From positions 69,598,916-69,662,915 of the forward strand of contig CM047426.1 of the NCBI GenBank assembly GCA_026168455.1: a stretch of DNA of 64,000 nucleotides. Direction: 5' to 3'. Below, piece by piece: positions 7,471 to 63,914 of the stretch. The stretch comes from Theocolax elegans. Taxonomy: Eukaryota; Arthropoda; Insecta; Hymenoptera; Cerocephalidae. The notes under the pieces are model-generated. The model saw only the letters and a list, made by a program, of their open reading frames with translations, had not been told where the DNA came from and made no database searches. Made by a program: the position numbers and the translations under genes. Within the stretch, counting starts at the first letter, position 1, and every line of letters starts with the position of its first letter.

Positions 7471-8981
7471 CACAGCCACACAAAAAAAAATGTCAAAACC
7501 CACGGACCAGACCATATATACCTTATGTTTTTGAGGTCGCTGATTCCGAATCCGTGGTCCATTTGACCCCATCACCTCAGGGTCAAGGTCACGTCAAGGT
7601 CAAATTTACAAAATTAACGGCAACCAAGGTTTAACAGTATACATATATGTTTTTGGGGTCGCCGAATCCGAATATGTGGTCCGTTTAACTCCATCACCTC
7701 GTAGTGAAGGTTATTTGAAGGTAAAATCGACAAAATTCTTGTAAAACAAACCAAACTTCATGTCATTTATTTTTTCTTACTATACCTTACACGTTTCTCA
7801 TCAAATGATCGGTGCAAAGGTTTCCTTTTACATTTTTCCACTACAATGAAGGAAACATATGATAATCTCAAAATTATAATACATAATATTCAGTATGATA
7901 AGCATAAATGGCGGATATGTGCTGATTTGAAAGTTTCTGGAATATTGTTAGGACAGCAGTCTGGACTTACAAAGACGCCATGTTTCTTGTGCTTATGGGA
8001 TAGTAGAGATCGTGCAAAGCACTATACAAATCATAAATGGCCTGAAAGAAAATCTCTCGAAGTCGGAAAGAGTAACGTTATAGCTACTTCATTGGTTGAT
8101 CCAAAAAGAGTTCTCATTCCTCCATTACAGATAAAACTTGGACGAAACAATTCGTTAAAGCTTTAGATAAAGATAGCCAGTGCTTCAAATACTTTCAAAG
8201 TAAATCAGATGCGAAATTGAAGGAAGGTATTTTTGACGGTCCAGAAATTAGAAAAATGATGACTGATGACCAGTTTATTAGTTCCATGACAAACATTGAG
8301 AAAGCTGCATGGCTTAGCTTTAAGGAAGTTACTGAAAACTTTTTGGGTAATCGCAGAAGCCCAAATTACAAAGTAATTGTATCTAAAATGGTTGAGAACT
8401 ATGGGAATATGGGTTGCCTAATGAATTACAAACTACATTTTCTGCACAATCACTTGGATAGTTTTCCTGGAAACTGTGGCGATTATAGCGAAGAACAGGG
8501 AGAGCGTTTTCACCAAGATGTTAAAGTAATGGAGAAGCGTTATCAAGGTAGATGGGATGCTAGTATGCTGGCCGACTACTGCTGGATGTTGAAAAGAGAT
8601 TGTGAAACTACTGGGAAAAAACGTAAAAGGAAACATTTGCACCGATCATTTGATGAGAAACGTGTAAGGTATAGTAAGAAAAAATAAATGGTATGAAGTT
8701 TGGTTTGTTTTACAAGAATTTTGTCGATTTTACCTTCAAATAACCTTCACTACGAGGTGATGGAGTCAAACGGACTACGGATTCGGATTTGGCGACCCCA
8801 AAAACATATATGTATACTGTTAAACCTTGGTTGCCGTTAATTTGTAAATTTGACCTTGACCTGACCTTGACCCTGAGGTGATGGGGTCAAATGGACCACG
8901 GATTCGGAATCAGCGACCTCAAAAACATAAGGTATATATGGTCTGGTCCGTGGGTTTTGACATTTTTTTTGTGTAGCTGTG
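7471..8981 (+). mobile_element. CAC-ended DNA transposon with ~290 bp TIRs, internally deleted
   Basis: The left end cacagccacacaaaaaaaaa (7471) is repeated inverted at the right end (…gtgtagctgtg, ending 8981). The TIRs extend for roughly 290 bp, to about 7760 and from about 8690. A 3-bp TAA flanks both ends (7468-7470 and 8982-8984), the likely target duplication. Ends starting CAC with a 3-bp duplication fit the CACTA/Mirage/Chapaev group. The element carries only the C-terminal part of a transposase-like gene, so it looks like an internally deleted derivative. Superfamily placement is inference. Confidence 0.75.
7846..8687 (+). pseudogene. Transposase-like protein C-terminal part, in two frames
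   Basis: Two open stretches (7846-8166 and 8217-8687) read as one protein with a break near 8166. Features in order: ICADLKVSGILLG, then a CxxC (TPCFLCLWDSRDR), a long helical region, HFLHNHLDSFP, then YSEEQGERFHQDVKVMEKRY with an acidic pair, and a Lys/Arg-rich tail resembling a nuclear localisation signal (KKRKRKHLHR). Proteins of this type are common, multi-copy and usually unannotated in arthropod genomes. The order CxxC, H-rich, acidic E resembles the RAG1/Transib-type core seen at 59747-61590. The N-terminal half, with the first catalytic Asp, is absent. It lies centrally between the TIRs, which supports a transposase role. Confidence 0.65.
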
Positions 8982-26862: not shown

Positions 26863-27223
26863 AACACTTCTACAGAGGGCACTCACCGATTACGATCTCG
26901 TAAAATATGCTAATCATTTAAAAATTCCATATTTTCGAGGTGTATTTATGCGTGATGGGTTACCAACTGACGGACCACATAAAAATGAGGCAGCAATTGT
27001 AAACTTGGATGATAAAAAAGGTCCAGGTACACATTGGGTAGCTTATCGAAAGGTAGATAACGATGTGGTTTACTTTGACAGTTTTGGTGATCTTCAACCA
27101 CCATTAGATTTAATGTTATATCTGGGAGTCGATACAGTTAAATACAACTATACGAGATACCAAGACTATAATACATACAATTGTGGTCACTTATGTTTGC
27201 AAGTTTTATGCAACAACTTATGA
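26840..27223 (+). CDS. Polinton adenain-like cysteine protease
   Basis: Virion-maturation protease of the adenovirus type. The catalytic elements are visible: His in GTHWVAYRK (about 27030), the acidic residue in VVYFDSFG (about 27070), and Cys in YNCGHLCLQVL (about 27185). The open frame extends upstream through LTDYDLVKYANHLKIPYFRG, but no ATG precedes that conserved segment. The true start is unclear and may have been lost, or lie in the overlapping end of the PLA2 gene. The C-terminus ends 5 bases before the TATA motif of the penton-like gene. Confidence 0.85.
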   Translation, partial: EKKKFEDLTLLQRALTDYDLVKYANHLKIPYFRGVFMRDGLPTDGPHKNEAAIVNLDDKKGPGTHWVAYRKVDNDVVYFDSFGDLQPPLDLMLYLGVDTVKYNYTRYQDYNTYNCGHLCLQVLCNNL

Positions 27224-27227
27224 AAGG

Positions 27228-27235
27228 TATAAAAG
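27228..27235 (+). promoter_or_regulatory. TATA box of the penton-like gene
   Basis: TATAAAAG about 50 bases before the ATG at 27278. It is duplicated in the left arm at 22720-22727. Confidence 0.6.
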
Positions 27236-27277
27236 GAGCAGACTGTTGAAATTATGCTCATAATGATTTAAAGAGTC

Positions 27278-27964: not shown

Positions 27965-27998
27965 TGTGTATTGTTTACAATTCTAAAGTTGGTAAGGG

Positions 27999-28006
27999 GT
28001 ATAAAA
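27999..28006 (+). promoter_or_regulatory. TATA box of the major capsid gene
   Basis: TATAAAAG followed about 25 bases later by an initiator-like tcatcagtctg, 160 bases before the capsid ATG. The ~40-bp segment holding it is absent from the left duplicate. Confidence 0.6.
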
Positions 28007-28161
28007 GCATTACCGATTATCGACCACTCATCAGTCTGAATAGAGCTTCCAAAGCACTAACACGGCAAAACATTCAGTTTTTAAAAACCCTTGGCTTAAA
28101 AGCCGTAAGAATCCCTGGTGGAAAATAACTTGTATATTCTTGTGTTGCTTTACGAAGAAAA

Positions 28162-28963
28162 ATGGAGGACATTTTCAAAATACAGTCGCACGTGAAATTT
28201 GATGAAACGTTTGAGCATTACGAGGTACATGCTTACCAACCATACACAGCATCAAATTTTAACAACAGTGATGAGATTCGAATATCTATTCAACATCAAG
28301 ACTTGTGTCTATTACCATCACGCAGTTCTCTGCATATTTGTGGAGGGTTAGTGAATAAAGATAATAATGTTACTAAAAAAACTGCTTTAGTCATCAACGC
28401 CATCTGTCATATGTTTGAGGAAATACGATATGAGATTAATGCTGTAGAGATTGATAAGTGTAAGAATGTTGGTCTTACTACATTGATGAAAGGTTGGGTA
28501 TCATTCAATCCTAGTCAAACTTCAATTATTGAGAATGCTGGTTGGATTGATGTTGAAGAGAAACAAAAAATCACAAATGATTCAAACAGAGGCAGAAGAT
28601 TTTAAAATCCAATTAAATAAAATAGAGTTGTATGTGCCATATGTATCTGTAAATAATACGTATAAAATTCGTCTGCTCAATCATATTCAAAAGAACAAAC
28701 CTATTGATGTGAGTTTTCGAAGATGGGAGTTGTACGAGTATCCACTCCTTCCAGCTGCAACTAAACATATATGGACTGTCAAAACTTCTAATCAGTTGGA
28801 AAAACCACGGTTTGTCATTCTTGGATTTCAAACCAATCGAAAAGGTGTAGCAACAGCTAATGCGAGGAAGTTTGATCATTGTAATATAAGCAATGTGAAA
28901 TTATTTCTCAATTCACAGTATTATCCGTATGGAAACTTTAATGTGAATATAGCTCAAAATTAA
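28162..28963 (+). pseudogene. Polinton major capsid protein, right copy, frameshifted
   Basis: Hexon-like double jelly-roll capsid protein. The first part (28162-28605) has EIRISIQHQDLCLLPSRSS and EEIRYEINAVEIDKCKNVGL. The second part (28529-28963, another frame) has RRWELYEYPLLP and KPRFVILGFQTNRKG and ends with FNVNIAQN. The two parts switch frame at about 28560-28600, and the protein is shorter than I expect of the family here, so a small internal deletion probably caused the shift. The same lesion is in the left copy. Confidence 0.82.
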
Positions 28964-31079: not shown

Positions 31080-32240
31080 ATTTTTTTAAATACGATTATA
31101 ATTTATAAATAAAAGTTTTTACCAAAATTTAGTGCACTGAAATTAAAATAAAAATAATAAAAAAATAGAAACATATTAAATGTTAACTGTCAATTTTAAA
31201 CTATATTAATTCTTATAAAGCTTAAATTTATATTTTAATAATTATAAATGTTAATGAAAAATTAACTTTCAAAAAATAGTAAAGTGCATATACTTACTAA
31301 ATTGTAGTATTTAGTAACTACTAATCAAAATTTTGGAATATTTTAAACGGATCTAAATAGAACTTCACCTCCTAAAATTAATTTATTTAATGAGGAAGGA
31401 TCAACGCCAAAAGTTCTATGTCATTAATATTTTGTACTTTTAGAGTAATAAAACTTTCTTCTTAAATAAATAAATTTTTGTATTAATTATAAGAACTATT
31501 TATAACATTTTATCGGCATATAAATAAAAACCTGTTTCTTCCATTTCTCCCGTAATTCGTAATTTGCACCCTCTTTCAAAATTTGCGTTTTAATCCATAA
31601 TTATATCCAATTTATTTTTCCCTTTAGTTACAAAGCCCATATATTTATTTTGATTATTATAAACAAATTCATTCCTTAAATAACCTTCTGTTTCTAATAA
31701 ATACTTACTTCTTTATTTAAAATATTGTTTTATATAAATATACATTATCTACTAAGTTATATATCCATACAATTTTGAAATTTTAATTTAAAAAATGTTT
31801 AAATTAAATCCTCCTAAATTAATAATTTTTGAAAAACTATCAACTGTAATTCGCATTTTATATTGCCACTGTTAAAATTTGGATTTTTTTTTGCCATTAC
31901 TGTTTATAATAGAATTATCTTAAAAATGCAATAATTAATGTATTTAATTTTTAACCCATTGTATATATCATATGGATATTTGGAAAAGTGTATGTTATAC
32001 TTGATTAATATTTATTTTAACTTCAAACAATTTTGCATCTGTATTTAAAGCATCACATTGAATTTTAGATCCGTTATTATTATTGAGTATACATTTAAAA
32101 ATGTTATGAGTTTTATCAGGAATTAGTAAACTAATACACATTCTTTCAAGTTATATTCACAATTTTTTTTTGCGCACGGAAAAAATACGTATATTATCTA
32201 TTCTTGAAAAAACATAATTTTGAAATATATGTACATATTA
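31080..32240 (+). repeat. AT-rich interspersed repeat, copy 1 (uninterrupted)
   Basis: About 1.1 kb non-coding repeat. It matches in inverted orientation 57600-58295 plus 62107-62360 (copy 2, split by the RAG1-like element) and directly 62363-63340 (copy 3). Shared words include tttcttccatttctcccgta and agttctatgtcattaa. It serves as the empty-site reference for two insertions. Ends and family are not defined. Confidence 0.75.
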
Positions 32241-40544: not shown

Positions 40545-41488
40545 TATGGGCTATTTCTATATAAATTTTAAATCGCTCCAAAATTTGAGAACAGGCTGGA
40601 AATATCTTCAAGAAGAGAGAAAAAAAATTTTAGGTGTTAAAAATAATTTGTCTAAGAGTTATTCCACCATGAAAAATGGAAATTTTTCAATTTTTTAGAA
40701 AATTTTCTATTTTCAAAGCCATTTATCTCAAAATCTATTCATTTTTTTTGAAAAAACATTACAAACAACTTTTGTTCAAAATAATCTTTAGAACTTATCT
40801 ACCTGGATTAGAATTCTTAATTTTAAAATCTCAAAGAGATAGAACGACCGTAAATATTGCATATCAAAAGAAGGCGACCACGCCACAATCGATTTTGATC
40901 TAACACCCTTCAAAAGATCACATTTTTCGAGAGCTTTCGAATGGCGGTGGTTAGATTATTGGCCAAGACCGCTGGTGTAAGTTATGCCTCATAAACCTCA
41001 TAAAATCACTAATTTTCATGTATTTTAGGGCATAACTTACACCAGCGGTCTTGGCCAATAATCTAACCACCGCCATTCGAAAGCTCTCGAAAAATGTGAT
41101 CTTTTGAGTGGTGTTAGATCAAAATCGATCGTGGCGTGATCGCCTTTTTTTGATATTCAATATTTCCGGGTGTTCTATCTCTACGAGATTTTAAAATTAA
41201 GAATTGTAACCCAGGTAGATAAGTTCTAAAGATTATTTTCAACAACAGTTGTTTGTAAGGTTTTTTCAAAAAAATTAATAAATTTTGAGATAAATGGCTT
41301 TAAAAATAGAAAATTTTCTAAAAAATTGAAAAATTTCCATTTTTCATGGTGGAATAACTCTTAGACAAATTATTTTTAACACCTAAAATTTTTTTTCTAT
41401 CTTCTTGAAGATATTTCCAGCCTGTTCTCAAATTTTGGAGCGATTTAAAATTTTCATCGTACCACTTGACGTGAAATAGCCCATATAT
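40545..41488 (+). mobile_element. 0.95 kb palindromic element, copy 1
   Basis: Almost completely palindromic: each end reads atatgggctatttc inward, the arms carry caaaatttgagaacaggctg and aattgaaaaatttccatttt, and the asymmetrical centre lies at about 40985-41035. It has no coding frame. Other copies are 56593-57549 (centre in opposite orientation) and 63345-63850 (half). Confidence 0.85.
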
Positions 41489-41499
41489 TAATATTTTAA

Positions 41500-42335
41500 A
41501 GAACATTTTTCTTTGTGTATATATAGTAGATCTTTGTACTAATAACTCGGAAACAAAGAAATTTTAACGAAAATTTAGTATGAAAAATTTATTTTTTTCT
41601 TTGCCCCAAAATTCTTCAATTTCTCATTTTCTTCATAACTTTGCTCCAAATTGATCAATTTAAGCTTCTTTTTTTCCACCCATGTCTACTTGAACTCAAC
41701 TTTTTTCTGGTATTTTGGTTGAATGCATATCTGTATTAGTTTCGGTGTTACGCACGAATAAGTTGGAAGTAATTATCATTGAAATTATTTTAGGTGTCGC
41801 ATAAATTTCATAAAAATGGCCGTTGGTAAGTAATAATATTACAAAAGATATACTAAAGTTAGGATAAGATCTGTTTCCCGAAGGTCAAGTAATCCCCTTG
41901 TAAGTAGATCGCATAAACCGGTATATAAAACCCATGATTAACAGTTCCAGTAATCTCAAGTTCCAATGTTTTGACAATGCCATCCAAATTCTCCGAGCCC
42001 CTCCAACTTGTATCTTCCTAAATCTGCACCAATACTCCTAGAAGCTTTATCACTCCCCTGCTCCTAACAATGCGGTCTTGATTTAAATATGAACCCCATT
42101 GCAAGCTTAGACATATAATTTTCAAAATTCAGTTAAATCGCAAGTTTATTAGGATATTCTGGGTTCCAGCCAACAGAAGGATACATGGAAATGAGTCAGC
42201 GGACGATGTAGCCAAGTAGAGTGCAAGGAGAGGGGTGGTTGATTTTGATAGGTTCTTCATTTACGTAGTTTACTCAAATATGAATAAATAAAATAGCAAT
42301 AAAAATGAGGTAATGAATCAATATCAAAATACTAC
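41500..42335. other. Spacer, nothing recognised
   Basis: AT-rich, without frames or repeats that I can support. Confidence 0.45.
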
Positions 42336-42691: not shown

Positions 42692-45291
42692 AATAAAAAT
42701 TACATGCTAGGTTAATCTAAGACTTTGTACTTAATCTCAACTTTATAATTTTAATTTTCTATATTTTGCAGGCATCTAATTACTTGCTCACTTTTATGTA
42801 CATATTATCACACTGCGCTGAGGTTTAGGGTGCAGGTGAGGTACTCGAGAAAATGTTAACTAAACCCTAAGTGCCGCTTGACATGACATGTACTATTTGC
42901 ATTGTCACAATATATTCACTTCTATTGCTGATTTATTTTAATTGCAACATTTATTACACTTACAAGGAGAGTCTTTGTGCTTCGGGTAACTATTCAGATC
43001 TAACTATTGCAAGGTGTTTTCTTACCTGTGAGCGTAGAATTTAATTTATATAATACCCTCTCATAGGCACTTTTACTATATTTTTATGCCTATAATAATT
43101 TTGTTCGACGCCAGCCATTCATACAGTCAAATACCTGCAATTAGCAATACGAAAATTAGTTGGGTTATATTTTTTCTTATCTACACTGCTCTTAAATAAA
43201 TATATACTTTTTTTAGAAATGTAACTGAACCTATGTATGTATAAATGATAAAATGATGAATACTTACATGGTTTATGCTATTTACTGCCACAAACTGCTA
43301 ATTAAGGACTGGTTGCGCCTTTTCAAGCACTTTCAAATCACTTCAATTATTGTAAGCAGCTATTATTTGCAATTTTCATCCGAATTGGAGATCTAGGAAT
43401 ATACATGATACAAAGAATCAGTTTCTTTTACCTCAACTAATAAAATATTCAAAGTAATTTCGACGAAAAAAAATTTCCATAATAATTAAATATTATTTTT
43501 TATTTTAATTTACTTAAAATATAAAAATGTTATTTAATTTTATTGAAATTATTTAATCCAATTATAATTTAATAATGAAAAGATAATCTTTTAAAAATTT
43601 GTTTCTAACCTTAAAAGATTCTTTATCTCACTTCAAAATTCAAACATACTTATTTAATGCAAAATCTGCCACGATTGTTGAGAATTCAAAATTCGTTGCT
43701 GACATCGTTGACCGTAAAATCTTGAAAATCGTATAATGTTAATGTAAAAAAGATTATGATATTAGATGGCAAGAAATTTTATCAAATACATTGTACATAT
43801 CAACACGAAAAAATATGCATTACAGACTACAATAAAACCTCCTAAATCAGCGCCCTCTGCTTATAATAAAAGGCACTATTTTAAAATCATTTGAATAGTG
43901 TTGTTTGCAATAATGGTTTTTACATTTTTATATTATATAAAATAAAATGTCGAATGAGAAAAGTGAGAAAGTGCCTGAATTTTTAGATGCCACATTAGAA
44001 TCTTCTAAATTTTTTAGTACACACGTTAATGTTTGCATTTAAATTTTAAAATTGAAACAATGTATTATAAAAGAATATGTGAAAATTCCTTCAGCGCAAG
44101 CCATATAAATTGGTTCTGAAATGGCTAACTTACTGTTAAATTATTTTGATAATTTGCAATTAATCGAAAGTGAGGAAGTTTTCATAGATTTTAATACTGC
44201 AGATAAAGATAATATTTTAATTGAGCCATTCGAAATAAGCAACAGTGAAAAACCTATAGAAGAGTCTCCAGGTAAATTTAATATATAATATATTTTTGTT
44301 TAATATTTATTTTAAAAAAATCATTTAAATTAATATTGGTACACATGACATTTAGCAAAAATTTTTTAAATATTATTCTAATCATTAGGTCAAGTAAATG
44401 AATACGATAGTTGCGAAGATCAAGCAAATTCAAACTTCATTCCTCTAGCAAAAAAATAAAAATAGTTAATATGGCATTCGAACATCCAAAGTGGTCTTTG
44501 CAAACTTTGCAAAATCATTGAGTACCATGTTTAACCCTCAAAGATGAATTGTCTAGATGGAAAGAGCAAATTAGAATTGACGGAAGTAGATTAGATAAAT
44601 TAGAAAACGTTAATAAATACGTCTATGAAATGTTTTCCACGCACCGAGAAAAAAATTTGTGCGTTACTACAAGAAATTTGAGAGAATGGGCGATGCAGAG
44701 AGCAATGCAGTCTGACGACGATTGTTTTTCTTTTGTCGCTTCTTTATCGTGGGTGAATAACTTTAAAAAGAAATATAGAATATCTCAGAGGAAAATAACG
44801 AAATTCATTAAACCAGCAGAGCAAAGGCAATTAGAGAATGTTCCAGTTGAGTGCAGTAGATTTCAAGATGAATGTCACAATTCCATTTGTCATTTTGATA
44901 TGTATTTTGAAATTAACACTGACCAAATGGGTTGCGAGTATCGCGCAAATGTTAATCGCAGTTTAGAGCATAAGGGTTCAATAGTTGTTAGAGTATATCT
45001 GGGAGATATGAATAAGGTGACTCATTCATATACTGCTCAGTATACAATTACCGCAGCAGGAAGGTTGCTCCCTTTAGTTTTCTTATACCTCCAGGAAACT
45101 AATGGCACATTTCGACTTCAAGTTTAGAAGGAAGTTGATGAACTGTGTTCTTTGTATACAAATGTCACCGTCATTAGTTCCAAATCTCGAAAATTAACAG
45201 CTGCATTATTCGCCAAGTACTTGGAAGAAATTCTAGAGCCATACGTTCAAAATAATCGGTTTTTATTCATTTTAGATAGTTGGGGAGGACA

Positions 45292-50165: not shown

Positions 50166-50571
50166 GAAAGAATTGAAATTAACCCAATAATTCCATATCA
50201 TCCAAGTTACTTCTTTGATTATGGAAAAGGGAAGAGCTTGGAAAAACTTTAAATCAAACAAATGATTTCATATCATTCAAAACTAGCTTCCTTTATGACA
50301 CGGTTATGTGGTATTAGGTAAGGTGAAATGAGCAAATCGCTAGTGCCATTAAAATGTTAAAATATATTATATTTGACATACGCGGTACGACCTGTTAGGT
50401 CGCCCGCGAACTCTGGGCGAATGCTGCCCTCGGCAGCGATGCATCTCGTTATATACGATGAGTTTGGTAGAAGGGATCGACTTCCCACTTTTTCCACTTT
50501 TCCACCTGGATCCTTGTAACTTGGTTTCCCTTTCTCCTTCCTTCTCATGTGATCATGTTCGTTGTATTTTT

Positions 50572-50932
50572 TTTTTTTTTGTTATTTAACGTCGCTCTAT
50601 TTATGCTGCCAGGGCTAATCAGCGACGGAGGTGAACGGTGTGTCTGTAAACAAAGCACATGTAGTTGAAACAGTGGTGCTTGTGTCCATCGGAAGATATC
50701 ATCGGTCACTGTAATTAGTCTAATAATTACAGTTTCCTGTCTTCCCGATGGAACCACCGCGAACCTCTTTACATCTTCGCGTCCCTAACGAAAAACTGGC
50801 GTCACATTATAGTGACACGCCGAGCCACTGAGTCGCGGTGTTCGAAAAATGCACATGAAAAAATTTTCAGAGGAACCCACGACCCTCGGTGTGAGAGTCG
50901 GGAGCTCTACCCATGAGCCACCGCGGCTCAAG
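50572..50932 (-). mobile_element. tRNA-derived SINE, copy A
   Basis: Read on the minus strand: a tRNA-like head (gagccgcggtggctcatggg, with A box; part of the B-box side is deleted), a unique body and a poly(A) tail (the T run at 50572-50584). It is flanked by gttgtattttt at 50561-50571 and 50933-50943. It is about 80 bp shorter than copy B at 60834-61273 because of deletions, one of which removes the gtacacgtctgggatcg part and another the 61055-61120 part. Confidence 0.85.
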
Positions 50933-51600: not shown

Positions 51601-53275
51601 GGCTGGTTCTCTGTGACATCGAAGATGAAAAAAATAAATATTGCTATAACTGTGGGAATATGTTTTAGAGGTATCCAGTAGTTCTCCTGAATTTTTTCAG
51701 ATTTTTTCTGGGCCACTATTTTAAGTTACAGAGAGTCAAAGTTGACATTTTAGCACTTTTTTGCATTATATGCCCATTTTCATGAATTTTTAGCTCTCAG
51801 GGGATGCATTTTTCACTAAAAACATAAGTATGACTTTTTTTGTAAAATTTTCCGAACTTTTCATTAAAAATACTTTTAAAGACATAAATGTATGCTGTCA
51901 CACTCTTGTAAGCCATTTAAACCTTAAATAGTGAAAATCAGCAATTCTGCTCCGGACTCTGGTAACCTAATACTGTCTAAAAGATGTCTTTTTATAGTCA
52001 GAAACTGCCTAAAAATTTCCAGAGTGGGTCTAAATCATTAAGATCACTTATGGTCAAAATATCCGGGAAAAGTGCCCGAAATATTAATAGAAATGTATAT
52101 TTGTTGCCTTAAAACGATGAATCTAGTAGCATGATCATTGCAAAAAAATTTATGCACTTACCTTGGAATGGTAGAACAGTATCTCCACTTGTTTCAGTAT
52201 CCATCTAATCCCCTGTAAGCTGCTAAAAATGCAAATATTATTATAAAATTATAAAAAATTATTTTTTAAACATTTATAATGCTGGATTTTTAGTTTTACA
52301 TCCCTTACAAGAATTATAATACTAATCTGAAGGATTACTATAAAAGTATCAACATTATTATTATTATTATTCAGCAATACATTGTTTAGATTTCACAAAC
52401 TTGTCACTGTCACGTTATCATATTATGCATTATAATTATATACCCGATTTATTTATATATCTTTTGTATTAAATACGTATATTCAGTTATTGTAATAATG
52501 ATGTTTATATATTTATAGTAATCCTTCAGATTAGTATTATAATTCTTGTAAGGGATGTAAAACTAAAAATTCAGCATTATAAATGTTTAAAAATTAATTT
52601 TTTACATTTGTATAATAATATTTGTATTTTTAGCAGCTTACAGGGGATTAGATGGATACTGAAACAAGTGGAGATACTTTTCTACCATTCCAAGATAAGT
52701 GCATAAATTTTTTTGCAATGATCATGCTACTAGATTCATCGTTATAAGGCAACAAATATACATTTCTATTAATATTTCGGGCACTTTTCCCGGATATTTT
52801 GACCATAAAGGATCTTAATGATTTAGACCCAATCTGGAAATTTTTAGGCAGTTTCTGACTATAAAAAGACATCTTTTAGACAGTATTAGGTTACCAGAGT
52901 CCGGAGCAGAATTGCTGATTTTCACTATTTAAGTTTCACTATTTAAATGGCTTACAATAGTGTGACAACATACATTTATGTCTTTAAAAGTATTTTTAAT
53001 GAAAAGTTCGGAAAATTTTACAAAAAAAGTCATACTTATGTTTTTAGTGAAAAATGCATCCCCTGAGAGCTAAAAATTCATGAAAATGGGCATATAATGC
53101 AAAAAAGTGCTAAAATGTCAACTTTGACTCTCTGTAACTTAAAATAGTGGCCCAGAAAAAAGCTGAAAAAATTCAGGAGAACTACTGGATACCTCTAAAA
53201 CATATTCCCACAGTTATAGCAATATTTATTTTTTTCATCTTCGATGTCACAGAGAACCACCCATATATATATATA
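51601..53275. mobile_element. 1.67 kb palindromic element
   Basis: Both ends read inward ggctggttctctgtgacatc / gggtggttctctgtgacatc. The arms (~0.7 kb each) contain the matching block agtcaaagttgacattttag and its inverse. The centre is near 52440. Flanked by TA microsatellites. No coding frame. The partial copy at 2790-3770 belongs to the same family. Confidence 0.85.
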
Positions 53276-53379
53276 TATATGTTATATATATGTTATATAC
53301 TGAATTCTTTGACACGGCGACAGCGGCGGCGGCAGCGAAATATTTATATATTATAGAGATATATAAATCATCAAGCGGC

Positions 53380-54000
53380 ATCTTTAACTGTTCCAAGGAC
53401 AACATACCACCGATGGCATTGGTGGCCAGCTCGACAAGTCGACTTATAGCGTCAATAGTTGACCGCCCTTTCCGAAAACCGAACTGATTGTCGGACAGAT
53501 CGCCTGCCTGTGCAATGGCTGCTTGTAGCCTGGCACAAATGAGCTGCTCGAATAGCTTCCCAGCTATATCCAACAAACAGAGTGACCGGTACAAGGAAGG
53601 CTTCTCCGGTGGTCGGCTCCCCTTTGGGAGAAGCACCAGCCTCTGTACCTTCCACCTTGCTGGGAAGCATTCTAATTGAAAACATGCGCTAAATGTGTCC
53701 GCAAAAATTTGTAGCACATTCAGTGCAGCGGTCTTAATAGCCAGACCATATATTCCATCCGGACCTGGAGCTTTACGGACGGATATTCTCCTTGCAGCCA
53801 TTTTCAGCTCGGTTATGCTAATGTCTGGCGGTGCGACTGCACTGTCGGTTCCCATTAGGCCTGTCTCGGCTGCCCGTTCCTGATGTTGTGGTAATAGGTG
53901 GCGCACCGCTCTGTCAAGAAAATGTGGACACGATGGCATTGAGGCGCCCCTAGGTTTGAGCTTATTCATCACCTTGATCTTATTCATCAGCCTTGAGCTC
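53380..54000 (-). pseudogene. LINE ORF2 reverse transcriptase N-terminal half
   Basis: RT fingers/palm start is clear: ARRISVRKAPGPDGIYGLAI (about 53780), WKVQRLVLLPKGSRPPEKPS (about 53630), then LCLLDIAGKLFEQLICARL and DNQFGFRKGRSTIDAI (about 53460). It ends before the YADD box, so it cannot be active. It follows the endonuclease after a break near 54000-54118. Confidence 0.85.
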
Positions 54001-54117
54001 CTTCCGTTTTTCCTCGTAGGCCGCGGTTAGTTCTTGGTACCGCGGCTGGTTCCGAGCTCTCTGGTGCAGTCGCCGAGTCCGCAGACACTCACGGTGTAAT
54101 TTTGCGATATTCTTATT

Positions 54118-54959
54118 CTACCAGTAAATAGGTGGTCGGCCACGAGGGGTGGATATCCCGGCCATAGAGATATTGCAAGCCGCTATTATGGCACGCGTGA
54201 GTTCCTCGGCTCGTTCTTCCGGTGTTACTTTGACAGCTACTTCTGCTATGGAGCAGAGGAACATTTGTCGGTCGAAGGTAGACGGTACCCATCTCTTATG
54301 TTGGAAACTTTTGTTCAGACTTACTGCCCTGTTAATCATCGATTGGAGCTGGTACACGAGTGCTTGATGGGTGCTCCCCGTGTAGCGATCACAAAGTTGC
54401 CAGGTAAACCCTCTCTTCATTAATCTGGGATAGATGAAGGTTAGGTCTACTATAGACGACCTCCCCGCCTTGGTAAAAGTGGGAGTCGTTCCAGTGTTAG
54501 CAATCTCCGACTTCAAAATCGCAAAGGCCTCGAGGAGTGTATGACCATGAGTGTTCGTTTTCATAATGCCCCATTTTGTCGCCCAGGCATTAAAATCCCC
54601 TCCGATGACTATTGGCAATCGGGAGGACCTTGCACAAGGGATCCCAGAAATCCGTCGATGTTATCACTGGGTGGGAGGTAGCAACTGTATATTCACATAC
54701 CCGCCACCTCCACCAAGGTAAAATTGGGGAGGGAAGCGGCCATTTTTCCGGATACATGCAAGTTTCCATATACCCAGATGGCCGCTCTGCCAGTGGCATC
54801 ACTCACCCATTTCGATTCAATGAGATCACTGTACTCCTCGCTGACGATAACAATGTCGGCCTGCTCTTCTCTGACCAACTGTGGCAGCAGATCTTGGGTC
54901 ACAGCACTGTGGTTTAGGTTGATTTGTAGCACCCTAACCATTTCTGTCAGATGCTTCAA
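54118..54959 (-). pseudogene. LINE ORF2 endonuclease (AP-type)
   Basis: Apurinic-type endonuclease that nicks the target for priming. The N-terminal part (54693-54959) has LQINLNHSAVTQDLLPQL and IVIVSEEYSD with the catalytic Glu. The C-terminal part (54118-54618) has VIGGDFNAWATKWG, DLTF and STHQALVYQL. A break near 54620-54690 separates them. The start overlaps the end of ORF1 by about 26 bases, as often seen in R1-type LINEs. Confidence 0.85.
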
Positions 54960-56250
54960 CCCTAGGCGCGGCTATGTTCTTATCCGCCGCGCAATCCACT
55001 GCTTTGTGGCCCTCTTGGCCGAACCGGAAACACTGCAATGATCGGTCGACTGCGCTTTTGCAAGCGTTTGCGAAGTGACCGACCTCGTGGCATCGGTAAC
55101 AACGCGTGATCGGCTCGCGGAGCCGAAACCTGCAGTTGACCCAGCCTATCCAAAGCTTCCCATTCTGTAGCAGCTTTTTTGCTGCCGATGCGGGAAGAAG
55201 GACACTGGTCATCTGAGTGCCTCCATATGACTTTCTAAGCTTTATATTCGCAGAAGATACCATATTTGGTCCAATCACCGCAGAGATTGCCTCTGCCACT
55301 TCCTCCGCCGTCGTGGCCTCGTCCATGTCCATTATAGTAATTAACTCTTTGTGGGTCAGCATCGGGACATCTGCTAACCCACGTAATGTGGACGAGACCG
55401 CTGCCTCGAGATCTGGAGTTCCTACGCCAGGTCTTTCAAGCTCAATGAGCAGATCTTCTCCTCTGGTACGCTGAATACGGAAGACTCTTTCTCGCAGCGG
55501 CTTGAGGTTTGGCGTGGCTCGTATTTGCCGAAGGATGTCGGCATAGGCTCGCCCTCCTGACACTTTAATCTTAATGGCGTCGGGACGAGCTGGTTCACGA
55601 CCGCTTTAGGTTTTTTGGACACCTTTGGCGGTCTTCCGACATGCTTGGCTTGCTTCAGCTGCGTATTCTGCTGAGTCTCATTCTTTTTGCCCTTGCGTAC
55701 TACAGTAGCCCAGTCAGGGACCTTTGACTGATTCCCACCGGTCTTAGGAACGGATGTTGATGCATCTGCTGGCCTATTTTTCTTAGTGGGCTGCTTCGAC
55801 CCCTTCTTCCTTTTCTCCAGGGGATGCTGAAGAGGTGAGGGCCTTTCCCTCTCCGCCGGCCTCCTGTGACGCTCTTCAGCGCGGAAGATGGGCGACGTTT
55901 ACATCCTTACGCGCATCTGCCATTTTAATTTTCGGCGCTGTCGAGCACACAGCACTGTTCACCCGCGCGTATTCATTGAGAGCTCTGCTGGTTGCTCTCG
56001 CCATACTCTTCAGCTCCTTGTGAATGTTGTTCTTATTCAGAACAAACTTGGTCAGGCTCCCTATTTTCTCATGCAGACAAAGGGAAGCTCTGTCAGCGTC
56101 ACTCGACATCCCAGTCGAGGGCAGGTCACACGTAGCATTTGATGCTACAGACGCCGAGTGACCAACCTCCGCAGCACTTACCATTTTAACGGTGTGAGTT
56201 TGGTCCCCCCCAAAATCCTTGGGACCAGCACTTACCACCGGGGCTTGCAC
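54934..56250 (-). pseudogene. LINE ORF1 (gag-like, CCHC knuckles)
   Basis: RNA-binding ORF1 protein. The C-terminal part has adjacent zinc knuckles, CYRCHEVGHFANAC and CFRFGQEGHKAVDC (about 55085-54990); in the second, Phe replaces the second Cys. The middle (55000-55563) is the conserved ORF1 fold region. The N-terminal part (55876-56250) is a low-complexity basic region. Frameshifts lie near 55560 and 55620-55870. Confidence 0.8.
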
Positions 56251-56530: not shown

Positions 56531-56592
56531 CAATGGGTTAAAAATTAAATACATTAATTATTACATTTCTAAAATAATTCTATTATAAATAT

Positions 56593-57549
56593 ATATGGGC
56601 TATTTCACGTCAAGTAGTACGACGAAAATTTTAAATCGCTCCAAAATTTGAGAATAGGCTGGAAATATCTTCCAGAAGATAAAAAAAAAATTTTAGGTGT
56701 TAAAAATAATTTGCCTGAGAGTTATTCCACCATAAAAAATAGAAATTTTTCAATTTTTTAGGAAAATTTCTATTTTTAAAGCCATTTATCTCAAAATCTG
56801 TTGATGTTTTTGAAAAAACATTACAAACAACTTTTGTTTAAATTAATCTTTAGAACTTATCTACCCTGGTTACATTTCTTAATTTTAAAATCTCGAAGAG
56901 ATAGAACGCCCGAAAATATTGAATATCAAAAAAAGGCGACCACGCCACAATCGATTTTGATCTAACACGACTCAAAAGATCACATTTTTTGAGAGCTTTC
57001 GAATGGCGGTGGTTAGATTATTGACCAAGACTGCTGTTGTAAGTAATGCCCTAAAATACATGAAAATTAGTGATTTTATGAGGTTTATGAGGCATAACTT
57101 ACACCAAGGATCTTGGCCAATAATCTAACTCAAGCCATTCGAAAGCTCTCGAAAAATGTGATCTTTTGAGCGGTGTTAGATCAAAATTGATTGTGGCGTG
57201 GTCGCCTTTTTTTGATATTCAATATTTTCGGGCGTTCTATCTCTTTGAGAATTTAAAATTAAGAATTGTAACCCAGGTAGATAAGTTCTAAAGATTATTT
57301 TAAACAAAAGTTGTTTTTAATGTTTATTAAAAAAATCAATAGATTTTGAGATAAATGGCTTTAAAAATAGAAATTTTCCTAAAAAATTGAAAAAATTCCA
57401 TTTTTTATGGTGGAATAACTCTCAGGCAAATTATTTTTAACACCTAAAATTTTTTTCTATATTCTGGAAGACATTTCCAGCCTATTTTCAAATTTTGGAG
57501 CGATTTAAAATTTTCATCGTACCACTTGACGTGAAATAGTCCATATATA
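56593..57549 (-). mobile_element. 0.95 kb palindromic element, copy 2
   Basis: Same arms and ends as 40545-41488, but the asymmetrical centre (about 57045-57095) is in reverse orientation. Right flank is a (tg)n tract at 57549-57580. Non-coding. Confidence 0.85.
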
Positions 57550-57599
57550 CATGTGTGTGTGTGTGTGTGTGCGTGTGCGTGCGGCGATCTATATAGATC

Positions 57600-58295
57600 T
57601 AAAATTTAATGCTTTAAATGTAGATGCAAAATTATTTGACGATAAAATAAATATTAATCAAGTAAATCATACACTTTTCTAAACATCAATATGATATATA
57701 CATTAGGTTAAAAATTAAATACATTAATTATTGCATTTTTAAGATAATTCTATTATAAAGAGTAATGGCAAAAGAAAATTCAAATTTTAACAGTGGCAAT
57801 ATAAAATACAAATTACATTTGAAAAGTTTTTCAAAAATTATTAATTTAGGAGCATTTAATTTAAATATCTTTTAAATTAATATTTCAAAATTGTATGGAT
57901 TATAAGTGAGTAGATTATGTATATATATATAGTAAACAAGATTTTAAAAAAACAAGTATGTTTTTATTAGAAACAGAAGGTTTTTTATGGAATGAATTTG
58001 ATTATAATAATCAAAATAAATATATGGGCTCTGTAACTAAAGGAAAAAATAAATTGGATATAATTATGGATTAAAACGCAAATTTTGATAGAGGGTGCTA
58101 ATTACGAATTACGGGAGAAATGGAAGAAACAGGTTTTGATTTATATGCCGCTAAAATGTTATCAATAGTTCTTTAAAATTGATACAAAAATTGATTTATT
58201 TAAGAAGAAAGTTTTATTACTATTAAAGTACAAAATATTAATGACATAGAACTTTTGGCGATGATCCTTCGTCGTTAAATAAATTAATTTTAGGA
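57600..58295 (-). repeat. AT-rich interspersed repeat, copy 2, left part
   Basis: Inverted match to about 31371-32070. It is cut at 58295 by the RAG1-like element and resumes at 62107-62360. Confidence 0.75.
58291..58295 (+). repeat. 5-bp target duplication (TAGGA), left copy
   Basis: Identical to 62107-62111. The paralogous uninterrupted repeat has a single tccta (31370-31374, other strand) at this spot. Confidence 0.88.
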
Positions 58296-58879
58296 CACTG
58301 TGTTCCTCAAGCATGTAAAAGTGGTCCGAAAATGGAACCAAAAACAGCTAATGCAGAAAGTCTCTATATTGTTTTTAGATGAAAAAAATGTAAAATTGAA
58401 AATCCTTAGTGATCGGCTTCCCAAGTTATGGACGCATTTGTGTTACGCTAAGCGCATTCACGAATAGCCAATTAGAGCATTTGAGTCCACACGTATACTT
58501 CGTTTACTCCGAACAAAAGAAATTGAGTATGTATTGATTACTTATTGTTAAGAGTATTATTGTTTTTTGATGATTTGAATATTGTCTATTAAAATGTTGA
58601 TATGATGGCTTAATAAACAAATCCATATTTCAATTGTTTCGTCGTTTCTCCATTGTATTTCAAAATGCATCATCTAATTTTCATAGAGTTGGTGTTTCAT
58701 AAATATATGATACAATTAAAAGTTTATTTTCATACCGCTAGGTGGCGCATGGATATCCGTAATCGAAAAATGTATGTCGAAGTCATATATACATCAGAGG
58801 AAAAGCCATCCAACCCTCCCGAGTTGCAGTTGCATTTTTTAAACTTACGTTTTTAAAACGCCTCCTCGGTATTATCATC

Positions 58880-59239
58880 ATGATAATAGAAAGAAAATAT
58901 GTGGAGCTTGTGATCGTAAAATCGTTGTTGGAAAAAAAACCAGATAAATTTTTAATAAATAAATCTACTGAAAAGCTTATAAAGAAGTTCATATCTATGG
59001 ATATCGATTTAAACGATGAAAGATATCCTGTGAGCATATGTAGGACTTGTTATTTGACACTACTTGATATTGAAAAAGAAATTTTCAATCGGCAAGTACC
59101 AACTATGCCTAACTACAAAGAGATAGTAGTGGCAAAAGAAACTCGTTTAAATAATGCTTGTAATTGTTACGTATGTTTGACTGCTCAGTCCAAAGGACAC
59201 AAAAAATTGAAAAAGGCAGAGGAAACTTTAGGGATATAA
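58880..59239 (+). pseudogene. RAG1-like N-terminal zinc region
   Basis: First open part of the transposase (ATG at 58880, though an upstream exon is possible). The segment EKLIKKFISMDIDLNDERYP then VSICRTCYLTLL, followed about 45 residues later by NACNCYVCLTAQSKGHKKLK, follows the order in the RAG1 N-terminal region: a helical stretch, a CxxC-type FCHNC site, a spacer, then a CDICNT site with a basic tail. The frame stops at 59239, but the protein continues in another frame. Resemblance judged by eye from memory of RAG1; a profile search is needed to confirm it. Confidence 0.65.
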
Positions 59240-59780
59240 GTAAAGAAATTGACATTTCTACTGGATATTATGAATCACATAAATCAGAGAAGCTCGAACT
59301 AAATAAATGTTATGATTCTGTTGATTCAATAAAATATTACATTAAACGTTTTCACGAAATTGGCAAAGGTAAAGCTCATGAATGCAAAAATTTCAGGGAT
59401 AATGCCATAAAAATAGTTAATCTTCCTCAGAAAATCCAATAGCAAATTGCAACTCATGTTATAAAATGCAATGAAGAATCCAATCAGGATGAAAGTGGCT
59501 GGCGGGCCAATATTGATTTAAATATGAGCACTGCTGGGCGGAGTAAAAAGATCACAATAAATAAAGTTGACAAGAACGTGGCCTCTGACGTAAATAATTT
59601 AGATAATTTTCGAGTTCAACTAGGCGCTTCAAAAAATGAGATGAGAAAAATTATCAATTTTATAAGGTGTAATGTTGGTAAAATGTCTATCTATCTATGT
59701 CTATATATAAAATTATCAAGAGCATATATCGAAAAAGTCGAAAGAATTGACAGATATTTACAAAACGGGTGTTTATGAAT
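59240..59780 (+). pseudogene. RAG1-like transposase, linker region in shifted frames
   Basis: 59240-59442 continues the protein in the +1 frame (KEIDISTGYYESHKSEKLEL). After a TAG at 59440-59442 it runs on (QIATHVIKCNEESNQDESG), and from 59524 comes STAGRSKKITINKVDKN. This Lys-rich linker between the N-terminal zinc part and the core has no catalytic residue visible. At least two frameshifts occur here. Confidence 0.55.
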
Positions 59781-60833
59781 TCGACTGTGAAAGCGCAACG
59801 GATGCAAAAAAGCAGTTACGTCCTGTCGTCTATGCCAATGCTGAAGAACTTGTAGAACAAGTTATCGAAAGTAGAAATTTTGTAGGCGACTGTTGCATCA
59901 AAGTTATGGCTGATGGAGGTCAAAATTTTTTAAAAATTAGTTTGTGTATTACGCCTGATAATTATTCACCCAAACAAGAAGAAAATTCCATGCAGGAAAA
60001 TTATGATACTGAAAAAGATCTGGAAGATTTCGTTAACTGTAATAATTCCAAGAAGAGAATACTCTACTCTGAAGGAGGTCGTCTAAGCAAAAAAGGTAAG
60101 CTATCTAGTGTAAATAGGTTGCTATTGTTGTGTGTGGTTCCTGGAATAAAAGAAACTCACGCAAATATTAAGCTTTTATTTGACTTGACCCAACTCAATA
60201 ATATCTCTTTCAAATTTGTTGCAGACTTCAAGCTTTTGCTGATAGTTAATGGACAACAAACCGCAACATCAACATTTCCTTGTCCATATTGTTTTGTCTC
60301 CTTAAGTGATTTAAGACACAAATTGACTTCGGAAACCAGTTCGAATGATAATGCTACTACAAGGGTATTTAATAGTGAAGAAATGGAAAATTGTACAAAT
60401 TTGAAAACTTATGGCGACTTGAGAAGAGATTATGAAATATACCGCCTCCTAAGGAACCAAGGAGAAGAGAAGGAATGTAGTAGAAAGTGTCATAGCACTA
60501 TCAATCTTCCTATTTTCGATCAAGATGATGATGTCTATATTTTACAGAAATGTGTGATACCTGAATTACATGCCCTGCAAGGCTTTGTAAATCATGTATT
60601 TTGGCAAGGCTTGGTTCCCCTGTTAGGTCTAGAGAAAGCTATAATGTAGCCACGCAAGCTCAATTTAGTTTCGAAAAACTATCATGGTGATGCTTTTGAA
60701 GGCAATGCGTGTAGAAAATTGCTGAAAGAGTCAGATAGGCTAAAAGATCCAGAATTATATAAAGATGTAGGTATTTTTAAAGTTATACCGTACATTGCAG
60801 CTTTCAAAGCTATGGATACGATGGTAAATTGTT
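59747..60833 (+). pseudogene. RAG1-like transposase core, first part
   Basis: Long frame 59747-60649, then a TAG and the same frame on to the SINE. In order: CCIKVMADGGQNFLKISLCI, matching the region of the first RAG1 catalytic Asp (D600, ESCDG); FKFVADFKLLLIVNG followed by STFPCPYCFV, matching the RAG1 zinc CxxC (C727/C730); VIPELHALQGFVNHVFWQGL, matching the RAG1 SIDALHCDIGNAAEF segment; and FEGNACRKLLKESD, matching RAG1 NGNFARKLMTKE. The second catalytic Asp (D708) cannot be placed; the likely position reads VVPGIKETH. These matches in order support homology to RAG1/Transib. Confidence 0.72.
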
Positions 60834-61273
60834 TTTTTTTTTTGTTATTTAACGTCGCTCTATTTATGCTGCCAGGGCTAATCAGCGACGGAGGTGAACG
60901 GTGTGTCTGTAAACAAAGCACATGTAGTTGAAACAGTGGTGCTTGTGTCCATCGGAAGATATTATCAGTCACTGTAATTAGTCTAATAATTACAATTTCC
61001 TGTCCTTCCGATGGAACCACCGCTGATCCTCTTTACATCTTCGCGTCCCTAACGTTCCCTATAGTTCAGATGCCCGTGCCTCTCATGCACTGACAAGTGC
61101 ACGAAACGCACGCGCACCTGAACTGGCATCACATTATAGTGACACGCCGAGCCACTGACTCGCGGTGTTCGAAAAATGCACATAAAAAAATTTTCAGAGG
61201 TACACGTCTGGGATCGAACCCACGACCCTCGGTGTGAGAGTCGGGGGCTCTACCCATGAGCCACCGCGGCTCG
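60834..61273 (-). mobile_element. tRNA-derived SINE, copy B, inside the RAG1-like gene
   Basis: Minus-strand SINE: tRNA-like head at the right (A box tggctcatgggtagagcc, B box gggttcgatccc at about 61208-61260), a body shared with 50572-50932, and a poly(A) tail seen as the T run at 60834-60843. The 12-bp target tggtaaattgtt is duplicated at 60822-60833 and 61274-61285. It interrupts the codons for MVNC of the transposase. Confidence 0.9.
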
Positions 61274-61590
61274 TGGTAAATTGTTGTTTCACCTCTGGAA
61301 AAGTAGGACCATCACTTGATAATTATATTAAAGAACTGAAAGCAGCTTTGGAAAGTCTTGAAAAACTTTCAGAAACACTGAAAATCCACGTAATTCTTTC
61401 ACATGCACAAGAAGGTTTTCAGTTCATTGAAAGAAATAATGGCTTAGCTTTTTGATCAGAGCAGAGTGGTGAATCCATTCATCGTGACTTCTTGAAGTTT
61501 TGGGATCGTTATAAAGTAAACGGTTATCATCGTGAGACTTATTTACCAAATTTGCAGAAAGCTGTCGTAGAATTCTCATCGCTATACGTT
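61274..61590 (+). pseudogene. RAG1-like transposase core, C-terminal part
   Basis: The frame resumes after the SINE (MVNCCFTSGKVGPSLDNYIK). Then LKIHVILSHAQEGFQFI matches the RAG1 zinc histidines (H937/H942, YFHKTLAH). NNGLAF, a TGA at about 61453-61455, and SEQSGESIHRDFLKFWDRYK match the RAG1 GAWASEGNESGNKLFRRF segment that holds the third catalytic residue E962. It ends with a stop near 61592. The TGA stands at a position where RAG1 has Trp. Confidence 0.72.
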
Positions 61591-61599
61591 TAACTCTTA

Positions 61600-61900
61600 A
61601 CAGTATCTTATCGTTATTGAACAATATTTTATATAATATGCTGAAAATAATAAAAAAAATAAAAAACCAACAAAAAACAGAAGAAAAAAAAACAAAAAAT
61701 AATAAAAAACCGACAAAAAACAGAAGAAAAAACAAAAAAAATACAAAAAAAAAACAAAAATGTGATCAGTTAACCACTACGTCCTCGTCGTTGATCATGG
61801 GTTACGCTAAAAATGGTTTCAGTAAGCTTGTTCTGGAAATTATGATTTTTCAATGATTCCATTCTATTTTTCAATCGACAAAATATTTAGCAATAATAAT
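61600..61900. other. A-rich low-complexity stretch inside the RAG1-like element
   Basis: Run of aaaaaacagaagaaaaaaaa-type sequence at about 61645-61760; the Lys/Asn frame over it is a by-product. No second gene. Confidence 0.7.
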
Positions 61901-62106
61901 ATCAACAAAAAATGATCAATACATACTCAATTTCTTTTACACGGAATTACTGAAAGAATTATACGTGTGTATACAAATGCTCTACTTGCTATTCATGAAT
62001 GCAAATTTTTACATTTTTTTCATCTAAAAACAATATAGAAACTTTCTGCATTAGCTGTTTCTGGATCGATTTTCGGACCACTTTTACAAGCTTGAGGAAC
62101 ACTGTG

Positions 62107-62360
62107 TAGGAGGTGAAGTTATATTTAGATCCGTTTAAAATATTCCAAAATTATAATTAGTAGTTACTAAATACTACAATTTAGTAAGTATATGCACTTT
62201 ACTATTTTTGGTAAGTTAATGTTTAATTAACATTTATAATTATTAAAATATAAATTTAGGCTTTATCAGAATTCATATAGTTTAAAATTTACAGTTAACA
62301 TTTAATATGTCTCTATTTTTTTTATTATTTTTATTCTGATTTCATTATACTAAATTTTGG
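62107..62360 (-). repeat. AT-rich interspersed repeat, copy 2, right part
   Basis: Starts with the duplicated TAGGA and continues the inverted match to 31080-31374. At about 62360 it meets copy 3, which runs in the opposite orientation. Confidence 0.75.
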
Positions 62361-62362
62361 TA

Positions 62363-63340
62363 AAAAAAGTTCTATGTCATTAAAATTTTGTACTTTTAGA
62401 GTAATAAAACTTTCTTCTTAATTAAATTAATTTTTGTATTAGTTTTAAAGAATTATTTATAACATTTTAGCGGTATATAAATAAAAACCTGTTTCTTCCA
62501 TTTCTCCCGTAATTCGTAATTTGCACCCTCTTTCAAAATTTGCGTTTTAATCCATAATTACCCTGGTAGAAAATTGAGCCTATTTATTGTCAGAATTTCT
62601 GGTAAACATTTTTGAAAATAAGATATTGCTAGAAATCCTTTTCAGAAAATTTGCAGAATTTCTAGATATACACCAATTTACCATGTGTTGACCAGAAATT
62701 CTGGTCAGAATCTGCCCTATTTTCTACCAGGGTATATCTAATTTATTTTTCCCATTAGTTACAGAGCCCATATATTTATTTTAATTATTATAAACAAAGG
62801 CATTCCTTAAATAACCTTTTGTTTCTAATAAATACATACTTGTTTATTTAAAATATTGTTTTATATAAATATACGTAATCTACTTACTTATATATCCATA
62901 CAATTTTTAAATTTTGATTTAAATAATATTTAAATTAAATATTACTAAAATAATAATTTTCGAAAAACTTTTGAAATGTAATTCGTATTTTATATTGTCA
63001 CTGTTAAAATTTGAATTTTCTTTTGTCATTACTGTTTATAATAGAATTATCTTAAAAATGCAATAATTAATGTATATAATTTTTAACTTATTGTATATTT
63101 CACATATAGATATTTGGAAAAGTGTATGTTATACTTGATTAATATTTATTTTATCTTCGAAAAATTGTGCATTTTTTTAAAAACATTACATTAAATTTTA
63201 GGTCCGTTTTTATTTTATGAGTTTTATCAGGAATAAGTAAACTAATACACATTCTTTCAAGTTATATACACAACTTTTTTTTGCGCACGGAAAAAATACA
63301 TATATTATCTATTCTTGAAAAAACAAATTTAAAATATATA
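62363..63340 (+). repeat. AT-rich interspersed repeat, copy 3
   Basis: Direct match to about 31412-32235, interrupted by the MITE at 62561-62732. It ends at a TA microsatellite. Confidence 0.75.
62561..62732. mobile_element. 172-bp TA-inserting MITE
   Basis: Ends ccctggtagaaaattgagcc and, inward from the right, ccctggtagaaaatagggca. TA flanks both sides (62559-62560, 62733-62734). The uninterrupted paralogue reads cataattatatcc at about 31596, which confirms the empty site with one TA. The TA target suggests mobilisation by a Tc1/mariner-type transposase. Confidence 0.88.
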
Positions 63341-63344
63341 TATA

Positions 63345-63850
63345 TATATGGGCTATTTCGCGTCAAGTGGTACGATGAAAATTTTAGATCGCTCCAAAGT
63401 TTGAGAACAGGCTGGAAATATCTTCCAGAAGATAGAAAAAAATTTTTAGGTTTTAAAAATAATTTGCTTAAGAGTTATTTAACCATGAAAAGTGGAAATT
63501 TTTCAAATTTTTAGAAAAATTATTATATTTAAAGCCATTTATCTCAAAATCTATCGATTTTTTTGAAAAAATATTATAAACAACTTTTGTTCAAAATAAT
63601 CTTTAGAAATTATCTATCTGGGTTACAATTCTTAATTTTAAAATCTCGAAAAGATAGGGCACTCGAAAATATTGAATATCAAAAAAAGGCGACCACGCCA
63701 CAATCGATTTTGATCTAACACCGCTTAAAAGATCACATTTTTCGAGAGCTTTCTAATGGCTTGAGTTAGATTATTGGCCAAGATCCTTGGTGTAAGTTAT
63801 GCCTCATAAACCTCATAAAATCACTAATTTTCATGTATTTTAGGGCATAA
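63345..63850 (+). mobile_element. 0.95 kb palindromic element, copy 3, left half only
   Basis: Matches the left arm and centre of 40545-41488, ending at tagggcataac, where a CA-rich microsatellite (63862-63914) begins. Confidence 0.8.
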
Positions 63851-63914
63851 CACATAAACAAACACACTCACGCACGCACACGCGCGCACGCACGCACACA
63901 CACACACACACACC

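Follow-up and report, generated by a model that had tools for sequence, protein, structure and literature searches.

A decayed transposon with RAG1-like motif order in an insect-type genome is very probably a Chapaev-type element

Chapaev is an already named group of DNA transposons (Kapitonov and Jurka 2007), and passages of PMC4079192 describe its hallmarks as 3- to 4-base-pair (bp) target duplications, 5'-CAC..GTG-3' ends and the transposase motifs C(2)C, LH and H(4)H. For Chapaev3, the same passages give a 3-bp TWA duplication between A and T. Protostome RAGL elements carry 5-bp duplications, a length that part of PMC7204232 presents as predominant also in ProtoRAG, Transib and RAG. Here, we describe an element at positions 58296-62106 of a 64,000-nucleotide stretch of Theocolax elegans DNA (contig CM047426.1; hereafter, the window), which a preliminary description had placed near Transib and ProtoRAG. 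The element is very probably a defunct copy of a cut-and-paste DNA transposon of Chapaev type, within the CMC or CMCT (CACTA-Mirage-Chapaev-Transib) group, in an insect-type genome. With its other copies pointing to this named group, the element is mostly ordinary.

The stretch from 58296 to 62106 is a complete but decayed DNA transposon copy. Its left end reads CACTGTGTTCCTCAAGC from 58296, and its right end, on the other strand from 62106, reads CACAGTGTTCCTCAAGC. The inverted arms match over 101 nucleotides at 94% complementarity, with a further block of 113 nucleotides at 80%. A paralogue of the surrounding host repeat is uninterrupted at the same point and reads ...ATTTTAGGAGGTGAAGTT... 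at ~31370-31374 on the minus strand, so that the insertion and its 5-bp duplication can be read off directly. The CACTGTG and CACAGTG ends and the 5-bp duplication given in the preliminary description are therefore correct for this copy, where TAGGA flanks both sides and the empty site agrees. They do not extend to the family: the left CACTGTG is private to the window copy among two-ended copies, and 5 bp is not the family rule. The host repeat itself occupies 56584-58295, 62107-63851, 31116-32238 and 40563-41500, in both orientations and with palindromic parts.

The family rule emerges from the other copies in the 658-Mb host genome. A search with the catalytic core gave 97 candidate copies, 40 of which were scored, including the window copy; the other 39 are 93-98% identical and are covered by 37 fetched loci. 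Two ends lying 2.5-4.6 kb apart are present in 18 of the 37 loci and in the window (20 rows, with locus L023 counted twice), where ends were chosen allowing up to 3 substitutions in 17. A perfect 4-bp target duplication flanks 12 of the 18 other copies (13/20 rows), and 15 of 18 have one with at most one mismatch (16/20 rows). The background rate of a 4-bp match between ends of different copies is 8/380, two of the 20 rows being one locus. None of the 18 has a 5-bp duplication, which occurs in 1/20 rows, that of the window. As to the termini, left ends begin with CAC in 15 copies and TAC in 3 (exactly CACAGTG in 14), and right ends begin with CAC in all 18 (exactly CACAGTG in 17). Most copies (15/18) are 3.2-3.5 kb long, of which ~2.3 kb is transposase frame and ~0.5 kb inverted repeats. 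The family thus duplicates 4 bp of mixed sequence and has CAC..GTG ends, as Chapaev does with its 3-4 bp; neither the 5-bp duplication expected of Transib and ProtoRAG nor the 3-bp TWA duplication expected of Chapaev3 is its rule. The motif order together with one 5-bp duplication had invited a RAG1/Transib reading, and only the other genome copies revealed the 4 bp. The window copy, the single 5-bp case among 19 two-ended copies, reflects a stagger of 5 bp or, alternatively, an additional T at its right junction.

A second element in the window, at 7471-8981, provides a reference for Chapaev3. It is of high copy number (474 candidates, 40 scored), and 12 two-ended copies of 1.4-2.7 kb are available, one in the window and the others in 11 of the 16 loci fetched; the remaining 5 loci were dropped because two ends could not be paired. 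All 12 have a 3-bp duplication, which is TWA in 11 and lies between A and T in 10; this element is therefore assigned to Chapaev3 by its own duplications. When its protein is compared with the core profile of our family, the score is 35.7 bits (E 2e-13 for a single comparison), with 28.0 bits from the D..C(2)C block and 5.0 bits from the H(4)H..E block (7.8 bits, E 5.7e-05, for that piece alone), and the best of 2000 shuffles reaches 6.7 bits. An hhalign comparison of the two gives a probability of 92.5% and an E-value of 5e-07 over 58 columns. The same core profile scores 0 bits or less against three Transib proteins and RAG1, and 2.4 bits against the best of 25 Transib proteins. By these profile scores, the family resembles Chapaev3 more closely than it does Transib or RAG1. 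It shares CAC..GTG ends with Chapaev3 but differs in its 4-bp mixed duplication, the Chapaev3 duplication being TWA flanked by A and T. With its 4 bp, the family is in line with Chapaev proper, which, as described in PMC4079192 and PMC4411706, is like it in the CAC..GTG ends, the 4-bp duplication, the motifs C(2)C, LH and H(4)H and a putative N-terminal zinc region ahead of the core, and unlike the window copy in the latter's 5-bp duplication.

The conserved residues of the transposase agree with this assignment. A protein search with the read-through translation of the window copy scored 8000 candidates and listed 100 proteins, with E-values down to 5e-293 and a top relative 71% identical. 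Full-length relatives are single proteins of ~750 amino acids. An organism is named in 13 of the 100 rows, namely Psylliodes, Brassicogethes, Leptopilina, Eretmocerus, Trichogramma and Pseudolycoriella, of which the first two are beetles, the next three wasps and the last a fly. A search from six distant members gave 52 proteins, of which the four named come from Psylliodes and Leptopilina. Phage records yielded no relatives, and none of 16 pattern matches in viral_contigs was confirmed as a relative. Among the 48 full-length relatives aligned out of the 100 matches (numbered by the relative P0001), D350, D454, C476, E567, L568, H569, H691, H696 and E719 never vary, and only one relative lacks C473. 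This conservation argues that the motifs are not due to chance. The alignment also bears out what had been read from the window copy, namely catalytic and zinc motifs in RAG1 order and a cysteine-rich N-terminal region; the relatives with a named organism are from insects. The family thus has the Chapaev motifs C(2)C, LH and H(4)H together with a putative aspartate-aspartate-glutamate (DDE) triad.

The order of these residues (D, D, C(2)C, LH, H(4)H, E) is common to the family, RAG1, Transib and Chapaev. Spacings are likewise similar: D454 to C473 is 19 and H691 to H696 is 5 in all 48 relatives, and the corresponding RAG1 distances, D708-C727 and H937-H942, are also 19 and 5, with residue numbers checked. 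In 25 Transib proteins, the distances are 15-16 (D to C(2)C) and 5 (H(4)H). The spacing from H to E is 23 in the family, 21 in Transib and 20 in RAG1. Passages of PMC12730594 present the motifs as common to the whole CMCT group, from EnSpm, Mirage and Chapaev to Transib and RAG1.

Residue order and near-equal spacings are also what would speak for the placement proposed in the preliminary description, a RAG2-less member of the Transib/ProtoRAG (RAG1L) lineage. Further points in its favour are that most ends are an exact CACAGTG, the recombination signal sequence (RSS) heptamer consensus, as in RAG1, ProtoRAG and TransibSU; that one copy has a 5-bp duplication; and that the N-terminal CxxC, CxxC, CxxC order resembles that of RAG1. 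Weak matches to Pfam DUF1280 also occur both in the family (3/48 members, best E 0.021) and in 2 of 3 Transib proteins (0.0058 and 0.056), and the sole hhalign match to Transib, which is not significant, falls in this pre-catalytic region. Against these stand the 4-bp duplications, perfect in 12 of the 18 other copies, and the profile searches. The profile of 48 relatives matches neither RAG1 nor HzTransib among Protein Data Bank (PDB) chains at E up to 10; not one of the 48 members matches Pfam RAG1 at E up to 0.1, and the same holds for 4 members at E up to 10. Against the 25 Transib proteins, hhalign gives a non-significant probability of 0.5% (E 0.12), the core alone likewise, and the best of the 48 members scores 5.2 bits against the Transib profile, in a non-catalytic stretch. 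The test is able to work, since the profile from this Transib set (A2; collected with a fragment as query, 474 proteins, 120 listed, 25 aligned) recovers HzTransib at 4.5e-202, amphioxus-type RAG1L (6b40) at 5.3e-15 and RAG1 chains at 1.9e-12 to 2e-8. Of 3 Transib proteins, 2 likewise match Pfam RAG1, with scores under the cut-off. At spacings of 12 and 23 bp from the element ends, only 4 and 5 of 9 positions, respectively, match the RSS nonamer, which was rejected. Transib (HzTransib, PDB 6pqn; A2) therefore resembles the family in its D, D, C(2)C, LH, GN, H(4)H, E order and, from the literature, in its CAC ends, and differs in the absence of a significant profile match, in its published 5-bp duplication and in having no (nearly) invariant cysteine before the first catalytic D in the A2 set, where the family has seven or more. 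RAG1, ProtoRAG and TransibSU share the catalytic and zinc residue order and the N-terminal CxxC series; they give no significant sequence match to the family and have a 5-bp rather than 4-bp duplication, and the family has neither a nonamer at 12 or 23 bp nor room for RAG2. That the element lacks RAG2, as first described, agrees with copy length, which leaves no room for such a gene; room was judged by length only, the longest open reading frames of the window copy outside the transposase pieces being 116 and 113 amino acids, and no RAG2-protein search was run. With controls working, no significant RAG1 or Transib match and a 4-bp family duplication, we reject the RAG1/Transib placement, which we regard as very improbable; the protein matches the Chapaev3 element instead. 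This is the outcome that the preliminary description had itself named as refuting its reading.

A further alternative is a separate CMCT lineage that is neither Chapaev nor Transib, whether Mirage-, EnSpm- or Lanisha-like or unnamed, with 4-bp duplications. According to passages of PMC12730594, CMCT elements form a strongly diverged group in which most have CA..TG ends and a duplication of 2 to 5 bp, and similarity to Chapaev3 alone leaves the branch unfixed. The termini, duplication length and motif set of the family nonetheless equal those published for Chapaev, and of the CMCT proteins compared (Chapaev3, Transib and RAG1) only Chapaev3 scored, which makes a separate lineage very improbable in our view. 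Several observations do count against a Chapaev assignment. Three of the 18 other copies have no 4-bp duplication, L017 and L020 having none and L024 a 3-bp match (CTC, not TWA), and the window copy itself has 5 bp. Membership is built on the hallmarks and a Chapaev3 relative, with the 4-bp Chapaev compared by description only, and Chapaev3 is represented there by a single decayed protein, assembled from two pieces that overlap.

The N-terminal region of the transposase is rich in cysteines. Its first two CxxC sites are kept in 48/48 relatives and the third in 47/48, in the same protein as the core. Earlier, a double zinc site had been read from the window copy; ICRTC and CNCYVC are indeed present, but the first CxxC, which reads VCGPC in P0001 and VCGAC in copy L026, has slipped out of frame there, so that the relatives have three CxxC sites and a fourth of the form C2..HxC rather than two. 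Kapitonov and Koonin (PMC4411706) describe a zinc domain, 'Chapa', that Chapaev has in common with TransibSU and RAG1, and the triple-CxxC region may correspond to this domain, a suggestive but weak fit given a marginal match here. The N-terminal profile scores 4.6 bits against the RAG1 N-terminus, with 54 of 5000 shuffles as good. All six RAG1 cysteines of the segment align to family cysteines, a result also reached by 8 of 60 controls in which CxxC units were left intact. The profile has no PDB match at E up to 10.

An alternative source for this region is a ZAD zinc-finger gene joined to the transposase by chance fusion. Weak matches to the zf-AD (ZAD) domain, at E up to 0.1 and at best 1.4e-4, occur in 13 of the 48 members, and UniRef names the relative P0020 a ZAD protein. 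No match seen in detail reaches the Pfam cut-off of 28 bits, however, and in P0077 the match falls on a different CxxC pair; zf-AD was accordingly rejected as a settled identity. Three CxxC sites and the core stand in one protein across 48 aligned relatives. The preliminary description had itself asked whether full-length copies take their N-terminal part from another gene, and genome copies such as L026 and L021 are colinear with P0001 as one piece, from residue 6 to 754 or 758. A chance fusion is hardly credible on these grounds. A bolder proposal is that insect Chapaev elements keep a true homologue of the RAG1 N-terminal zinc region ahead of a DDE core, along with the exact V(D)J heptamer CACAGTG at their ends, and would be a living RAG2-free outgroup for the RAG1 N-terminus; bolder still, the recurrent though weak zf-AD signal would mean that the ZAD of arthropod transcription factors and the transposase N-terminus have a common origin. 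We consider this unlikely. Should N-terminal homology to RAG1 be established by structure, the question of where the RAG1 N-terminus came from could be tested directly in this family, which has full-length relatives in several genera of insects.

The precise ends, the staggered insertion, the empty paralogous site and the conserved DDE and zinc residues are observed features, and the DDE core probably adopts an RNase-H fold. By analogy with RAG1 and Transib, the transposase would bind the ~267-bp inverted repeats and cut exactly before CAC, and both ends would then be joined to a target cut with a 4-bp stagger, yielding the 4-bp duplication. The N-terminal zinc region may make DNA or protein contacts.

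The transposase of the window copy is broken by frame changes, stops and an insert (see the table), and the motifs ICRTC, CNCYVC, MADGGQ, PCPYC, ELHALQGF, GNACRKL, HVILSH and SEQSGESIH all lie where they had first been read. A 436-bp insert resembling a short interspersed element (SINE) splits the C-terminus. The insert point is read straight through in 33 of 37 other loci, the remaining 4 being without the junction, which rules out the insert as a part of the transposase. The insert looks tRNA-derived and contains the B-box-like GGTTCGATCCC; ARAGORN called no tRNA in it, and an Rfam scan of the window found 0 families. A second SINE-like copy lies at 50566-50929.

When 40 sequences are compared along 939 bp of the core, they depart from the majority by a median of 1.9% (1.5% for the window copy). 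These differences are even over codon positions (277/234/232), which suggests a burst of spread followed by neutral decay of the copies. Between different loci, no pair is less than 1.8% apart; the two closest pairs each lie within one locus. These two loci, L018 and L029, each hold two partial coding-region copies side by side, 0.1% and 0.4% apart. In copy L026, which is flanked by a 4-bp duplication, a frame of 758 codons remains open, but the LH and SEQ.GE motifs are altered at two positions that are (nearly) invariant among the 48 relatives. Present activity is not supported, given these motif changes and no different-locus pair closer than 1.8%. An inverted-repeat search of the genome gave 112 candidates, a number similar to that for the core; among the 40 scored of the 112, nothing therefore points to short non-autonomous copies in great numbers.

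Table. Coordinates of the Chapaev-type element, its parts and the reference features in the window
Feature	Position	Strand	Basis or remark
Whole element	58296..62106	+	3811 bp including 436-bp SINE-like insert; paired ends, target duplication, empty paralogous site, genome copies
Left target duplication TAGGA	58291..58295	.	empty site ~31370-31374
Right target duplication TAGGA	62107..62111	.	5 bp in window copy
Left terminal inverted repeat, ~267 bp, begins CACTGTG	58296..58562	+	inverted-repeat comparison, genome copies
Right terminal inverted repeat, begins CACAGTG on minus strand	61891..62106	-	inverted-repeat comparison, genome copies
N-terminal zinc region: CxxC, ICRTC, CNCYVC	58876..59218	+	frame break ~58935; tblastn of P0001 on window, cysteine columns
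Linker and fourth zinc-like site (C2..HxC in relatives)	59203..59691	+	frame break ~59203-59218, stop 59440-59442
Putative catalytic core, part 1: D (MADGGQ), D (ADFK), PCPYC, ELH, GNACRKL	59711..60838	+	frame break 59691-59711, stop 60647-60649
SINE-like insert	60838..61273	-	poly-T at left edge; 16-bp duplication 60822-60837 / 61274-61289
Putative catalytic core, last part: HVILSH (H(4)H), SEQSGESIH (catalytic E)	61273..61593	+	stop 61453-61455, natural stop 61591-61593
Paralogous host repeat with empty site	31116..32238	-	uninterrupted at insertion point
Second element, Chapaev3-type, reference	7471..8981	+	CACAGC..GCTGTG ends, TAA duplication, D..C(2)C and H(4)H..E blocks

Transposable elements abound in the window. 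A gene block at 20816-28963 contains integrase (Pfam rve, 22912-23763, minus strand) and phospholipase A2-like (26093-26527, plus strand) domains and an inverted duplication (21055-22868 / 27087-28937, 97-99% identity), and resembles a Polinton/adintovirus-type element. A reverse transcriptase domain is found at 149-682, integrase zinc-binding and RNase H domains at 13397-14188, and a Tc5-type DNA-binding domain at 44522-45124. At 53247-55602, a weak reverse transcriptase match, below the Pfam cut-off, has a zinc knuckle nearby.

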